In this document: positions 58,121 to 63,059 of the stretch, piece after piece
Position numbering within the stretch: the stretch's first letter is position 1
Layout of the letters: every line of letters begins with the position of its first letter
Source: Corynebacterium casei LMG S-19264
Lineage (GTDB): Bacteria; Actinomycetota; Actinomycetes; Mycobacteriales; Mycobacteriaceae
Reading direction: 5' to 3'
Assembly: GCF_000550785.1 (NCBI RefSeq)
Contig: NZ_CP004350.1
Span: forward strand, 1,902,009 to 1,966,008
DNA length: 64,000 nt
Made by a program: the position numbers and the translations under genes
Notes under the pieces: model-generated
What the model saw: only the letters and a program-made list of their open reading frames with translations
Told to the model about the DNA's origin: nothing
The model's database searches: none

Positions 58121-59875
58121 CTACTGCCGCGCCCAATCCCCAATCGGGCCCGGCAACGCCGCCGGCGGGTCACCCAGCAGATCCCGACGATTCTTATCCG
58201 CCTCCACCCTCGACGTCACTGCCTTAATCATCCCCGACTTCTTCTTTTCCTGATTTCGCCCCGCGGCACCCGGCGCCATCATCGGCCCAGCAGCGCCACG
58301 ACCATGCGCATTCTGTGCTGCTCCGGCACCAGTACCCGCGCCATGCGCCCCCGCACCTGCCCCGGCTCCCGCACGACTAGCGCTTTCACCAGTTCCGCCC
58401 AGTACGCGCGAGCCGCCCTCGCCTGCCGCCGCACCAAACCCACGACCGCTCAGTCCGCCACCAGCTCCAGCGCCACGCGCACCTCCAAGCCCGGCCCCAG
58501 CAATTCCCCCGCGGATTCCCGAAGCTGCACTGCCATTACCTGCGCCACCAAGTGCACCTGCCCCGCCAAGCGCCCCCAATGGTCCCATGGCCCCGGAACC
58601 AGCGCCCGCCCCCAGGCCTCCGATTCCCGAACCCGCCGACGCCGCAGCACCCGCGCCGCTCTGCCCGAGTCCCGGATTTACACCATTGTTGAAAGCGCCA
58701 CTGCCAATGCCATCAAGACCCGCAGCCGACGTGCCCGTGTTCTCAAGAGTCTGCATTCCCCCGTTAATGAACTCTTGTAGCTTTCCCCCGCCATACAACG
58801 CCTCATTTCGATCTGCCACCGCCTGCCGAACCTGATCCACCAACCCCTGATCAATATTCTCCAGGGCAACCAACTCCCCATCAGCCACCCCGAAAGACCC
58901 CGGTCCAATCTCCCCGCTTTGAATCGCTTCCTGAATCTCCTGCGGCCACACCACCTTATCAGTGTTGTAGCGGACCCCCGTCCCCGCAATCGACTCCAGC
59001 CCAATCTCGACATTATCCCCGCGTCCATTTGACGACGGCGGATCAGTGAGGCTCTGCTGATCCGGAAGTGAACTTGATACCAGCTCCTGCAGCTTCAATT
59101 GCCATTTCGTCAGCATCGCTGCTTCAACTGTCTTTTGAATTATCGGATCAGGAATGGCTTGCACTGCTGTGACATCAGCGGGTAACTCGATATACGCTGT
59201 CGGAGCCTTGCTCATCATATTGAACGCTCGAGAATTCATCAAAGACGCATTAGCAGCAAATTGCTCGCCTGTAGCTGCCATTTCTCGAATTCTAACGGCC
59301 GCATTTCGAGTAAAGTCACTGTCGTGCTCGGACTCCAATTGTGATGCGGCACTATTCAGTTGTTTTACAACTTGGCTAATGTTCGTTGCCAGAGTAAGCC
59401 AGTCCGCAGCAACCTGTCCGAGTTGGTCGAACCTCGTGGTATTGAAATTGTTCGCCAATTGCACCAATGACGCACCTGGTATTACTACGGGTGGCACAAA
59501 TGAGAGTGGATATTTCTGACTACTTGGTTGCGCCGGTAGTGAAACTCCACTAGCCCCAACCCAGCCGCCCTCATCCGCAATCTCGATTCCTTGCGAATTT
59601 GAGGTGTCCTGCTGAGAAATTGAGTCTGCTTCGGCTGCAACGAGGCCGCTTGCCCAACTAACTTGCTCCGCAAACTTCTTCAAAATTTCTTGTGCAGAAG
59701 CAGGGTCTTGCGTTATGGCTCGTCCGTGAATCACACCAGCTTCATTCATTCCCACAATGGATGAGAATTGTCCACCAATGCTGCTCTGCACAGCACCAGC
59801 CGTCATTTCGATTTCCCTTTGAGCTAAGGCAAGCTGCGCCGAAGTAGATTCTAACGCTGCGAGATTAATCTTCAT
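58121..59875 (-). CDS. PPE/ESX-like helical protein with Gly/Ala-rich tail
   Basis: A 584-aa protein. Residues 1 to about 100 are helical and resemble the WXG100/PE type (MKINLAALESTSAQLALAQREIEMTAGAVQ, then GVIHGRAI and a W at about 75). A helical middle region contains a PPE-like block (about 130-250). Residues about 370-540 are low-complexity Gly/Ala. The C-terminus is short, charged and conserved-looking (AVTSRVEADKNRRDLLGDPP, then PGPIGDWARQ), as seen in actinobacterial ESX-associated proteins. No classical signal peptide is present, so type VII export is plausible but no secretion genes are here. The start ATG 59875 overlaps the lipoprotein stop by 11 bp. The exact function is unknown. 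Confidence 0.75.
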   Translation of the reverse strand: MKINLAALESTSAQLALAQREIEMTAGAVQSSIGGQFSSIVGMNEAGVIHGRAITQDPASAQEILKKFAEQVSWASGLVAAEADSISQQDTSNSQGIEIADEGGWVGASGVSLPAQPSSQKYPLSFVPPVVIPGASLVQLANNFNTTRFDQLGQVAADWLTLATNISQVVKQLNSAASQLESEHDSDFTRNAAVRIREMAATGEQFAANASLMNSRAFNMMSKAPTAYIELPADVTAVQAIPDPIIQKTVEAAMLTKWQLKLQELVSSSLPDQQSLTDPPSSNGRGDNVEIGLESIAGTGVRYNTDKVVWPQEIQEAIQSGEIGPGSFGVADGELVALENIDQGLVDQVRQAVADRNEALYGGGKLQEFINGGMQTLENTGTSAAGLDGIGSGAFNNGVNPGLGQSGAGAAASAGSGIGGLGAGAGSGAMGPLGALGGAGALGGAGNGSAASGIRGGIAGAGLGGARGAGAGGGLSGRGFGAAAGEGGSRVLGGTGESASRAGAGAGAGAHGAGTGAGAAQNAHGRGAAGPMMAPGAAGRNQEKKKSGMIKAVTSRVEADKNRRDLLGDPPAALPGPIGDWARQ

Positions 59876-60530
59876 GTTTTCCATCCAGTTCCAAAACGGT
59901 CTTTAGTTTCATTTGTGCTTCATCGCATGGATCAAATGAAAAGTTTTCATTCCCATATTCAAAAGACTGAAAGGACACGCTAAAGGTTCCCCGTTCAGTT
60001 TCAATTGCGGCTTGGCATTCGGAATCCGCAAGGTATTTAGAACGATGCAGTAAAATAGGGTCCCCATTGCTCGTCTGATCCCATGTAACGTCCCCTGAGA
60101 TACCAAGAAATGCATCATGATTATGCCTGCTTCCTTGAAGATTGAAAATTGAAGTACCGTACTCGGGTCCGGCATTGAACGTACATGTCCCGTCGACCTC
60201 GCCAACACCTTCCATCATTTCTTTGCCGTGTAAGCCGGCCTTTTCCAAGAAGTCGTCAGGGATCTCGAGGCAGGGTTTGTATTGGACGTAGTCGGGATCG
60301 CTTCGATCAAATTCTCCGAGGGGCGGAATCACAGGCTCGGCTTCAATGCCATCGCCAGCGGCAGCTACGTCGGTGTTCTCATCGGTTGATTCAATGCTTG
60401 ATTCTGGGACCACTGATTCGGGTGCCGAATCTGTGGACTCACCACCTATATTGATGGTGCAACCAGTCAAAATTGCGCCGGCGGCAAATAAGATTCCAGT
60501 GTGGCGTAGTTTCCTCAACAAATGCATCAA
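59865..60530 (-). CDS. DUF3558-like lipoprotein, paralogue 1
   Basis: A 221-aa lipoprotein. The signal peptide ends in LTGCTINIGG, lipidated Cys at about 24. An acidic Ser/Glu/Asp spacer follows, then a folded domain from about residue 80 (PCLEIPDDFLEKAGLHGKEM, GTCTFNAG, ECQAAIETERGTFSVSF, FDPCDEAQMKLKTVLELDG) with paired cysteines as in DUF3558. Such lipoproteins occur often with ESX or PPE-like genes in actinobacteria; the role is unknown. It is upstream of and overlaps the PPE-like gene, so they are coupled. Two ATGs (60530 and 60527) are possible starts. Confidence 0.82.
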   Translation of the reverse strand: MMHLLRKLRHTGILFAAGAILTGCTINIGGESTDSAPESVVPESSIESTDENTDVAAAGDGIEAEPVIPPLGEFDRSDPDYVQYKPCLEIPDDFLEKAGLHGKEMMEGVGEVDGTCTFNAGPEYGTSIFNLQGSRHNHDAFLGISGDVTWDQTSNGDPILLHRSKYLADSECQAAIETERGTFSVSFQSFEYGNENFSFDPCDEAQMKLKTVLELDGKHED

Positions 60531-60681
60531 GTCCCCTTATAGAATGCAGAATTCGGCACAGCCTTGTGCCAAGACAATAACTATTGGTTCCCCGATCCCC
60601 CAATATTTTTTATCAAGCATGCCCGAACTAGTTGGAAATGTCTACGGTTAATTGCAAAAAGGTGGCATCAGCAAGCACTAC

Positions 60682-61341
60682 TTAACCGTTGTAATTGTCT
60701 TTGCCATCTGCAGTAAGAATGGAACGCAAATAGTGCTCCGATTGAGCACAGGTGTCTCCATCTGCATTTGGGGACTTATGACTCACCAGCAAAGTTCCAC
60801 GTTCAGTACCAACCGTCGCACTGCAGCTCGGAGCGCCACCATACGAATTGTCTATGAGTCCGATCGGGATTCCATCGCTTGTTTCAGACCATCCCATTGC
60901 TTCATCGCCTTCAAGGAATTCCAGTCCGACAAACAATGCTGAAATGGATAACTTTCAATTTCCCTCCATCGTCAAATAACACGCTGGGGTCGATTCATTC
61001 TCAAGGACAGTTTTAAGCTCACTCATGCCCAGGCTTTCGTAAAACTCACTCGGGACTTCCGTGCAGGGATTAAAAACATCAGTCAGATTTCCCACCACAG
61101 CAGATTCTCCGAGTTCCGGCAAGTATCCGCCCTCAAGAAAGCTATCTACCCCGCCATTAGAATCGCCAGTTCCGTCTGCGGCATTTTCAATTGTCTGCGA
61201 TGACGTCGCACCTGTTACCGAGTCGTTGGCTTCAGCTTCAGGACTTCCCCCACCCATGTTTATCGTGCATCCGGTCAATAGCATTGTCGCAGCTGCTGCG
61301 ACAAACCCCACACTGACTGTTCTGTTTTTACGGAAGTTCAT
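60682..61341 (-). pseudogene. DUF3558-like lipoprotein, paralogue 2, split by an in-frame TGA
   Basis: Reading from ATG 61341, a signal peptide ending LTGCTINMGGG (Cys about 25), spacer and first domain half (TEVPSEFYESLGMSELKT, then PACYLTMEGN) reach a TGA at 60955-60957. The same frame continues without shift as KLSISALFVGLEFLEGDEAM and on to LRSILTADGKDNYNG, the expected C-terminus when compared with both neighbours. So one nonsense change splits a gene of 220 codons. An internal TTG at 60936 could restart translation, but the product would lack a signal peptide. It is probably inactive unless read through. The open frame upstream to 61392 is not needed. Confidence 0.8.
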
Positions 61342-61415
61342 TCTTGCCCAACTATTAACTTGAAAGTAAAAGTCCGTGGCCATCTTCGCCAAATACGAGA
61401 TGACGGTGACGCTAA

Positions 61416-62117
61416 CTAACCGTGGTAGTTGTCCCTGCCGTCTGCGGTTAACAATGTCCGAAGCCAGTATTCAGCATCGATACACAAATCCTCGGGTTCG
61501 CTAAATCCAACAGACAGAAATCCCACCGCAAGTGTTGCCCGAGTGGTTTCAATCGTGGCCATACAATTGGATAAAAGTCCGCTTCTTTCACACACCAATA
61601 GGAACGGATCTCTAAAACTTGTCTTTGACCATCTTCCTGGTACTTCGCTAATTCGACGACCAGACAGGCTGTGGGGTGTGCTTCCAAAAGAAACTTCCGA
61701 GAGATCACCCAGCCAAGCATGACTGCAGGTTCCTATTTCTGAATCGGCATGGTATTGAAATTTGAGATCAGTCAAACCAAAACTCTCATAGAAATCTCTT
61801 GGCACATCAAAGCACGGACCAAAGAATTCCACACTCGCCAGCGCCGGATTAAATTCACCAAGCTCAGGGAAGTATCCATCAGAGGCTGCTTCTAGTGTGT
61901 CTCCGACCCCGTCGCCGCCGACCGAACCACCAGAATTGAACGGACTTGCGTCAGTAATTCCATTACCATCTTGAAATCCAGACGACGCTGAGTCTGCGGT
62001 GCCTGTATTTGCACCGCTTGAACGGTCAACCGGCCCGAATTCAGTGGAACAGGACGAGATTGCTAAACCTAAAAATTGCAGCACCATAGTGCACGCAATT
62101 AATCTTTTGTATTTCAA
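61416..62117 (-). CDS. DUF3558-like lipoprotein, paralogue 3
   Basis: A 233-aa lipoprotein. The signal peptide ends ISSC (Cys about 23), and a Gly/Ser/Asp-rich spacer leads to the domain starting near residue 95 (FGPCFDVPRDFYESFGLTDLKF, GTCSHAWLGD, SNCMATIETTRATLAVGF, DLCIDAEYWLRTLLTADGRD). The ending LLTADGRDNYHG matches paralogue 2 (ILTADGKDNYNG), showing tandem duplication. It is the first gene of a minus-strand group: paralogue 3, 2, 1, PPE-like gene. The function is unknown. Confidence 0.82.
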   Translation of the reverse strand: MKYKRLIACTMVLQFLGLAISSCSTEFGPVDRSSGANTGTADSASSGFQDGNGITDASPFNSGGSVGGDGVGDTLEAASDGYFPELGEFNPALASVEFFGPCFDVPRDFYESFGLTDLKFQYHADSEIGTCSHAWLGDLSEVSFGSTPHSLSGRRISEVPGRWSKTSFRDPFLLVCERSGLLSNCMATIETTRATLAVGFLSVGFSEPEDLCIDAEYWLRTLLTADGRDNYHG

Positions 62118-62363: not shown

Positions 62364-63059
62364 CTAGTTGGTGGTGGAATCGGAGCCCGAGTCGGAATCG
62401 GTGCCGGAGCTGTCGGAGACAGCATCGCCAGTGTCGAGATTGCCGCCGCCAGCGACGGAGGTGAGGATCCACTGCTCAACGACGTCTTCAACGGGGGCGG
62501 TGCGGGAGGCATCGACAAGCTCGTGCAAGTCTGTATTCGTGATGTACTTGGTCACGCTGTTGACTTCATGGCGGTCAACGCGGTTGAGCAAGGTCTTTTT
62601 GTAGATAGGGACGATGTCCATGGGGATGTCGACCTCATCGAAGTCATCACACCAGGTAGCGGCGGATGGATCATTAGTCATCCAGTCCGTTGGCATGGCG
62701 CCCATCATCTCATCGTGGGTGACCACATTGTTATTGCGGCCGTCGAAATCTTCCTCGGCCTCAAATGCCGCTTCAAGCTCTTGCGCGCGGGCGGGATCGT
62801 TCTCCCACAGAATCTGGCCGGTGCAACCAATGCGGAAATTGCCCTCACCGGAGTGAGCAATCTCAACATCGCGGCCCTCAATTTCCAACGTGCCGCGGTA
62901 GATTTCTGCGAGCACCATCTGCTCAGCATCATCTGGCTCCACTACTATTCTCACCGGCTCAGACTGAAGCCCATTTGCTTCCGGGGTCACCTCAGCAAAA
63001 CTGCAGGCAGAAAGCACTGCCGTCGACAAAACTAGACACATCGCACCAAACTTCTTCAC
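62364..63059 (-). CDS. Conserved lipoprotein, function unknown
   Basis: A 231-aa lipoprotein with signal peptide ending LSAC (Cys 19). The mature part contains ILWENDPARAQELEAAFEAE, a pair of cysteines (GCTGQI and TWCDDFDEVD) and NSVTKYITNTDLHELVDAS, then a Ser/Asp/Gly-rich disordered tail (SDSSGTDSDSGSDSTTN). I recognise no named family. It is divergent from mrp with a 65-bp gap. Confidence 0.78.
   Translation of the reverse strand: MKKFGAMCLVLSTAVLSACSFAEVTPEANGLQSEPVRIVVEPDDAEQMVLAEIYRGTLEIEGRDVEIAHSGEGNFRIGCTGQILWENDPARAQELEAAFEAEEDFDGRNNNVVTHDEMMGAMPTDWMTNDPSAATWCDDFDEVDIPMDIVPIYKKTLLNRVDRHEVNSVTKYITNTDLHELVDASRTAPVEDVVEQWILTSVAGGGNLDTGDAVSDSSGTDSDSGSDSTTN

Follow-up and report, generated by a model that had tools for sequence, protein, structure and literature searches.

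A DUF3558 lipoprotein coupled to a predicted EspB-like PE-PPE protein in Corynebacterium, and a cassette exchanged across the gene junction

The gene pair and the predicted fold of its second product

The stretch of DNA analysed here, a window of 64,000 nucleotides from Corynebacterium casei LMG S-19264 (contig NZ_CP004350.1, positions 1,902,009 to 1,966,008), carries a pair of overlapping genes: one for a DUF3558 lipoprotein and, directly downstream, one for a 584-residue protein, here called the partner, whose model resembles the mycobacterial protein EspB. Across Corynebacterium, a block of about 630 bp over the junction of the two genes, comprising the folded portion of the lipoprotein together with the 80-90 N-terminal residues of the partner, is replaced as one unit between similar flanks. 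On balance we favour the view that the lipoprotein and the EspB-like PE-PPE protein form a matched pair whose polymorphic specificity region is transmitted as a single cassette. Coordinates of all features, counted from the first letter of the window, are given in Table 1.

The initial annotation had described a 584-residue protein overlapping a lipoprotein gene by 11 bp, and this is confirmed when the partner frame is counted from its ATG at 59875 and the lipoprotein frame ends at 59865; an alternative in-frame ATG at 59884 would give a partner of 587 residues. The lipoprotein matches PF12079 in Pfam (E 1.2e-11, 45.3 bits, cut-off 34.1) and has the lipobox LTGC, with the cysteine codon at 60459-60461. 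The model of its domain reached a predicted local distance difference test score (pLDDT) of 81. Its structural matches were Mog1/PsbP-like rows at only Z 5-6.9, with a best Foldseek E value of 0.078, and are not used here as evidence of kinship.

Residues 1-350 of the partner were modelled with AlphaFold2 from an alignment of 36 sequences. Mean pLDDT was 78.9, ten-residue blocks exceeded 80 up to residue 280 except at 91-120, and confidence was low beyond residue 280. In VIA-align, EspB (4xxx) was the best match (Z 18.0, root-mean-square deviation 2.9, 234 residues aligned, 10% identity); EspB entries held ranks 1-11 (Z 15.3-18.0), followed by a ferritin-like protein as the next unrelated row (Z 9.7), and the match covered model residues 1-278. 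EspB also held Foldseek ranks 1-8 (best E 1.1e-4, template modelling score 0.49 by query length), with rank 1 alone below E 0.001. The PPE half aligned with PPE15 of PE8-PPE15-EspG5 (Z 8.0, 147 residues), a score that ferritin-like bundles reach as well. According to the model, the partner has an EspB-like PE-PPE fold, with the PE and PPE bundles within one chain. Structure prediction, a check suggested with the initial annotation, returned a PE-PPE (EspB) bundle, and of the PPE-like traits proposed there the fold stood, while membership by sequence did not: PF00823 (PPE) gave no match to the window protein even with the limit at E 10. The partner was not recognised by Pfam or NCBIfam, neither of which found a toxin domain, and a search of the sequences of solved structures returned one match at E 1, which was not useful.

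The first helix of the partner lies within its most variable part, residues 1 to about 35, where mean identity is 0.43 over 97 comparisons with a middle part at least 0.9 identical. Towards the other end, the tail has a median glycine plus alanine fraction of 0.48 over 97 homologues, and a motif of the P...(V/P)IG type, searched as a loose pattern, is present among the 30 C-terminal residues in 96 of 97 full-length homologues.

Table 1. Features of the gene pair and the neighbouring lipoprotein genes in the window
Feature	Position	Strand	Basis
Predicted EspB-like single-chain PE-PPE protein (partner), 584 residues	58121..59875	-	Open reading frame; ATG at 59875; modelled EspB fold
Cognate DUF3558 lipoprotein	59865..60530	-	Start TTG 60530 or ATG 60527; PF12079, lipobox
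Hypervariable exchanged cassette over the junction	59636..60265	-	Position carried over from relatives, roughly -390 to +240 relative to the partner start codon
Predicted N-terminal Esx/PE-like helical domain, about residues 1-105, helices 5-28, 43-56 and 61-102	59561..59875	-	AlphaFold2 model; profile match
Predicted first helix, residues 5-28, within the most variable part (residues 1-35)	59792..59863	-	Model
Predicted PPE-like helical domain, about residues 130-278	59042..59488	-	Model; EspB match; weak profile match
Gly/Ala-rich tail, about residues 370-540	58256..58768	-	Sequence
Conserved C-terminal motif LLGDPPAALPGPIGDWARQ	58124..58180	-	Motif count in homologues; profile match
Extra unpaired lipoprotein gene, broken by an in-frame TGA	60682..61392	-	Open reading frames; genus family profile
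Extra unpaired lipoprotein gene, intact frame	61416..62117	-	Family profile; 30% identical to the paired lipoprotein

Pairing across the genus and replacement of the cassette

Of 201 Corynebacterium genomes, 153 have a partner homologue, and a single genome can have as many as nine matches. The loci collected, 133 with the window included, hold 141 partner open reading frames and contain some places twice; 106 unique units remained once duplicates were removed. A start could be placed for 131 partner genes, and in 128 of these an upstream reading frame, picked by position and lipobox and not by homology, ends within 150 nucleotides of the partner start. The other three are a frameshifted fragment, a gene at a contig end and one locus with lipoproteins 2 kb away. 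The strict lipobox pattern is missing in 15 of the 106 units, seven of which have a looser pattern; the frames of the other eight are broken, too long or doubtful. The coupling of one lipoprotein to a PPE-like gene, first noticed in the window, is therefore general in the loci examined and kept across the genus. The partner gene is broken by a stop codon or frameshift in L023/L047 and L057 (L numbers denote loci), and it may be dispensable in some strains.

When units at the same chromosomal place were compared, identity profiles showed both sides to be near-identical and the middle unrelated. Six clean same-locus pairs have flanks at 91-100% identity and a block at 47-49%, which spans from -390 or -420 to +240 or +270 relative to the partner start codon. 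Flanks were long enough in 101 units, which gave 33 comparisons with an identity of at least 85% on both sides; identity of the block (-390 to +240) fell below 65% in 26 of these, lay at 65-80% in three and reached 80% or more in four. The nearest relatives of the window, L003 and L004, differ in the same way, with a block of 58% between flanks of 96% and 94%. Two genomes that carry the name C. tuberculostearicum, SK141 (L027 = L037) and FDAARGOS_993 (L025 = L059), are 99% identical in the flanks and 50% in the block; the cassette thus varies inside one named species. The borders are not uniform: of 24 pairs profiled, two have no block and one a block of 60 nucleotides only, and in many others the borders differ, in that the upstream region is also unlike, the block ends at +96 to +120, or it runs from -360 to +360 as in L003/L004.

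Misassembly as the source of the block was ruled out, as it occupies the same place in 26 of the 33 comparisons, and in several of these both genomes are single contigs (L025, L026, L029, L080). Fast point mutation or lost constraint was also dismissed, given flanks of 85-99% in the 26 comparisons, sharp borders in the clean pairs and a low ratio of nonsynonymous to synonymous substitution rates (dN/dS) within cassette types. A candidate displaced cassette in L057 was withdrawn when the partner gene there proved to be frameshifted after about residue 48, and this unit was left out of the 33 comparisons and of the correlation, nearest-neighbour and dN/dS analyses. We conclude that the cassette is replaced as one unit between similar flanks, a feature invisible from a single sequence.

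Linkage of the two halves, selection and unpaired lipoproteins

Both parts of the cassette could be parsed in 83 of the 106 unique units (23 were dropped), or 82 without L057, and among these 82 the partner middle is at least 80% identical in 127 comparisons. Within backbone clusters, the identities of the lipoprotein domain and of partner residues 1-35 correlate strongly (r 0.849; permuted mean 0.283, 0 of 2000 permutations). Partner residues of about 36-105 track the lipoprotein domain in part (r 0.478, 0 of 2000), and the lipoprotein linker before the block does not track the cassette (r 0.262, 389 of 2000). In 89 of the 127 comparisons both halves fall below 0.55, in 11 both are high and in 27 they are intermediate; none of the 127 combines one half at 0.75 or above with the other below 0.5. 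For the 38 units whose best lipoprotein match reaches at least 60%, the best match of the helix region is the same unit in 28 cases, compared with 13 for the partner middle. The linkage of the halves only suggests that the lipoprotein physically binds the partner.

Within cassette types the sequence is conserved. In 13 hand-chosen comparisons, several of which are saturated (dS above 1), dN/dS is 0.07-0.40 in the lipoprotein domain (13 of 13) and 0-0.34 in the helix region (defined in 11 of 13, with dS 0 in the other two); the value for the bodies of L019 and L049 was unusable because the L049 gene is split. Cassette types also cross between genomes of different species (G numbers denote genomes): L116 (G026) resembles L123 (G135) at 0.91/0.97, and L067 (G135) resembles L118/L119 (G026) at 0.96 in the lipoprotein domain and 0.92-0.95 in the helix. 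Such a distribution is the pattern of versions maintained by selection that favours diversity, on a conserved body, and a polymorphic matched pair of lipoprotein and partner is the likely state.

The same data bear in different ways on the kind of selection that this would be. Versions common to several genomes, with purifying selection within each, would be expected if the complex were a receptor or a part of an uptake channel in the mycolate envelope, with phages or bacteriocins as attackers that favour rare faces and the helix changing to keep its fit. A channel function has some precedent, as the introduction of PMC12607788 presents mycobacterial PE-PPE proteins as channels for molecules that carry iron. 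Searches of plasmids, phages and viral contigs yielded no confirmed match, the lipoprotein being absent from phage records and the partner from viral contigs, so there is no sign of phage carriage; we regard such an escape as a minor possibility, albeit one to be kept in view.

Copies within one genome speak to another explanation, in which the lipoprotein would serve as a dedicated tether or chaperone and divergence of the faces would do no more than keep several copies in one cell from cross-reacting. Multi-copy genomes do retain different cassettes on similar bodies. The four copies in G135 have bodies 0.99-1.00 identical and lipoprotein domains at 0.39-0.72. These paralogues (L053, L054, L123, L124) thus combine near-identical bodies with different cassettes, which points to gene conversion of the partner body within that genome. 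Two observations argue against insulation of paralogues as the driving force: differences from neighbours at one locus are seen in genomes with one or two matches as well, and L118 and L119 are copies in a single genome that carry the same cassette. We consider this explanation improbable.

Antigenic variation against a host immune system appears more improbable still. Some carriers are presumably skin or mucosal species, and PMC3319526 calls the pe/ppe genes of M. tuberculosis polymorphic. The block nevertheless also differs between L003 and L004, which belong to the group of the window, and each version is conserved, not freely variable. This group presumably lies near the free-living C. glutamicum.

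The two further lipoproteins upstream of the pair in the window bear on a third alternative. The initial annotation had grouped three related DUF3558-like lipoproteins, and a family profile built from the paired lipoproteins across Corynebacterium does detect all three (61416-62117 at E 8.9e-16; the two halves of 60682-61392 at E 4.5e-6 and 2e-5). Two details were corrected: the middle gene is split into two reading frames by an in-frame TGA at 60955-60957, its halves score 14.2 and 13.4 bits against DUF3558 in Pfam and so fall under the cut-off of 34.1 that the paired gene passes, and the lipoprotein at 61416-62117 has no Pfam match. The ends LLTADGRDNY and ILTADGKDNY belong to the proteins at 61416-62117 and 60682-61392, respectively, and the paired lipoprotein ends in LELDGKHED. 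The two unpaired lipoproteins resemble the paired one at 30% and 38%, and one another at 42%; in three other genomes, unpaired and paired lipoproteins of the same genome are about 62-96% alike. A tandem family is not a general part of the locus, as extra lipoproteins occur in only 8 of the 93 loci with at least 3 kb of upstream sequence, a set in which some places are counted twice, and in four genomes (G000, G141, G196 and C. phocae), that of the window among them. No partner remnant followed the unpaired lipoproteins (best E 0.13), in a test that was positive in 40 of 40 paired controls (of 106). L114 and L048 were rejected as unpaired lipoproteins because they are pieces of a paired gene, that of L048 being N-masked. 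Further upstream in the window, 62364-63059 encodes an unrelated lipoprotein without Pfam match. In L002-L004, the three closest relatives, the pair is preceded by a reading frame that closely resembles this one at its end.

Unpaired lipoproteins could be orphan immunity genes if the pair were a competition system. The PE-PPE protein would then be a conserved antagonist, possibly ring- or pore-forming, that is delivered to neighbouring cells via its variable N-terminal face, and the producer would be protected by the lipoprotein as its matched immunity protein. The lipoprotein-type reading frame before 128 of 131 partner genes, the eight loci with unpaired lipoproteins lacking a partner remnant behind them, and the several versions per genome all fit such a system. 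So does the best weak fold match of the lipoprotein, the type VI secretion system immunity protein Tsi3, although its Z of 6.9 lies below 8, a level that the tool calls common. The absence of any toxin domain recognised by Pfam or NCBIfam, a variable part that is short and N-terminal, the reverse of polymorphic toxins, and the 85 of 93 loci without an orphan lipoprotein argue against it, and we hold this explanation to be rather unlikely. Of the possible forces, we rate two highest, each as a minority possibility: recognition or competition among strains, and evasion of phages or bacteriocins.

Origin, export and meaning of the pair

A search of the family with the full partner profile matched 31 of 301 genomes, of which 24 are Corynebacterium; in the seven others, from four genera, the C-terminal part alone matches (E 9e-7 to 4e-4). 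The synteny survey suggested in the initial annotation did place DUF3558 genes (E 1.3e-30, 5.9e-20 and 3.6e-22 at the three annotated loci) beside PPE-like genes in other genera, with EspG in two of three loci. The order is DUF3558, Esx-like, PPE-like and EspG in L145, DUF3558, Esx-like and PPE in L148, and Esx-like, DUF3558, PPE-like and EspG in L146. The Esx-like genes encode about 120-137 residues, and PF00823 (cut-off 26) is exceeded in L148 (32.4 bits) and not reached in L145 (20.8) or L146 (23.9). A stand-alone Esx-like family is widespread outside Corynebacterium: 121 of the 301 genomes of the family have a match, a single genome as many as nine, and neither of two such proteins tested had a Pfam match above cut-off.

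In profile comparisons, the N-terminal domain of the Corynebacterium partner matches the Esx-like proteins of other genera (E 7.9e-5, probability 61), the PPE part matches their PPE proteins weakly (E 6e-4, probability 29) and the tail matches the PPE tail over 20 columns (E 2.1e-8, probability 95). Crossed comparisons gave probabilities of 0.34 and 0.15, and residues 1-300 taken as one profile matched less well (29 and 14). Since modest matches occur in a consistent order, the partner likely originated by fusion of separate Esx-like and PPE genes. The EspB-like proteins of Corynebacterium and the PPE proteins of other genera (L145-L175) have in common a C-terminal motif of the L(L/I)GE-x-P-x3-P-x-VIG type, which may act as a signal for sorting or processing.

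In the other genera the junction shows less variation. In nine comparisons with PPE identity of at least 0.8, means were 0.74 for the lipoprotein domain and 0.71 and 0.78 for the first and second half of the Esx-like protein, against Corynebacterium means of 0.49-0.52 for the lipoprotein domain and 0.43 for the partner N-terminus. The junction test could parse 20 of 33 units there, and two of seven pairs (L152/L153 and L156/L160) dip at the junction, among further dips. Between L156 and L160, L163, L164 and L165, the lipoprotein domain is at 0.45-0.49 and PPE at 0.78-0.84, a hint that junction exchange may also occur outside Corynebacterium. So far, exchange at the strength described above appears to be a trait of the fused Corynebacterium form.

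The search for type VII genes suggested alongside the initial annotation found a locus with EccB, EccC and EccD in the same genome; neither of the two results named there as refuting that annotation was therefore obtained. The genome has one EccD match (598 kb), and the ESX locus at about 595-605 kb lies 1.35 Mb from the pair at 1.96 Mb. It holds EccB, EccC, EccD, a mycosin-like protein (236.5 bits, below the model cut-off of 278.75), an Rv3446c-like protein and two WXG100 proteins, and no EspB-like gene was found among its tested proteins. From this gene content we take the locus to be ESX-4-like. The label agrees with the single ESX-4-type locus of C. glutamicum mentioned in PMC12607788. A remote ESX-4-like system probably exports the partner. 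EspG was not found above cut-off in any of the 201 Corynebacterium genomes, with four fragmentary matches at E 1e-3 or better. EccD and the partner occur together in 151 genomes, EccD alone in 35, the partner alone in two and neither in 13 (Fisher p 1.5e-7), an association given little weight because both searches miss divergent species and the partner is also present in the EccD-negative G017 and G157.

Taken together, we propose that the DUF3558 domain of the membrane-anchored lipoprotein most likely binds the Esx/PE-like helices at the N-terminus of its own partner; both binding faces would then have to change together. Homologous recombination in the conserved ends, the VLPPLGEFDP region of the lipoprotein and the partner after about residue 80, would swap both faces in one event and leave the remainder of both proteins unchanged. 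The PE-PPE partner would leave the cell by the remote ESX-4-like system and probably work at the envelope. Selection for being different would then keep many versions in the genus, most plausibly for recognition between strains, or else for escape from phages or bacteriocins.

Several observations weigh against this proposal. The 33 flank-matched comparisons lack independence, as they draw on 24 units; a single group, that around C. tuberculostearicum, supplies 20 of the 26 with a low block, all from one locus, and the remaining six are L003/L004, L102/L103, L117/L123 and three between copies inside a genome. Few strains per species were sampled. With a single cut at 0.55, the halves are unlike in 13 of the 127 comparisons (11 similar in the lipoprotein only, two in the helix only); most of these are intermediate values, such as 0.70 with 0.49, and the mixed cases still count. 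Partner residues 36-105 vary far less than residues 1-35, which leaves room for an interface smaller than the whole block. One recombination tract would co-segregate without any binding, so linkage by itself speaks for exchange as a unit. As for export, W.G is absent from partner residues 1-70 in all 97 full-length homologues and Y...[DE] occurs within residues 70-125 in five of the 97, other places not having been searched, and of the 15 genomes that lack an EccD match at least 4 have the partner gene.

The components themselves are of known kinds, an EspB-like PE-PPE protein as predicted by the model and a DUF3558 lipoprotein, and their arrangement sets them apart from described systems. EspB of mycobacterial ESX-1 resembles the whole fold of model residues 1-278, with PE and PPE in one chain, but is only 10% identical, and the Corynebacterium gene lies away from the ESX locus, is coupled to a lipoprotein and has a hypervariable N-terminal helix. 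PE-PPE pairs with EspG of ESX-3 and ESX-5 are alike in the PPE half, which aligns with PPE15 at the ferritin-like level of Z 8.0, whereas the Corynebacterium form is fused, and none of the 201 Corynebacterium genomes has EspG above cut-off. The clusters L145, L146 and L148 bring DUF3558, Esx-like and PPE or PPE-like genes together and share the C-terminal motif, but there the Esx-like and PPE genes are separate and the junction varies less. Polymorphic toxin-immunity systems likewise have two adjacent, co-changing genes, and the unpaired lipoproteins may correspond to the unpaired copies of their smaller partner; in Corynebacterium, by contrast, the variable part is N-terminal and helical, the cassette lies over the junction with conserved ends on both sides, and no toxin domain was found. 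In the open-licence literature, where the term DUF3558 turns up in a single paper with a different topic, we found no description of a fused, EspG-free pair with a lipoprotein and a junction cassette.

A tentative extension of our proposal, possible but doubtful, is a genus-wide allorecognition system in which one junction-spanning cassette codes for the receptor face of the lipoprotein and the matching face of the ESX-exported EspB-like protein. If this were true, a single recombination would switch the identity of a cell to another complete, self-consistent type, and unpaired lipoproteins would give tolerance of former or neighbouring types.

Pfam labels DUF3558 as a domain 'of unknown function', and to our knowledge the roles of the PE/PPE and DUF3558 families are mostly open. 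The natural set of matched versions described here, part of which comes from relatives of harmless laboratory strains, would offer a direct route to the binding partner of a PE-PPE protein and to the reason for its variation, and Corynebacterium, with one ESX locus, no EspG and a fused PE-PPE protein, would provide a simple state for comparison with the PE/PPE expansion of mycobacteria.

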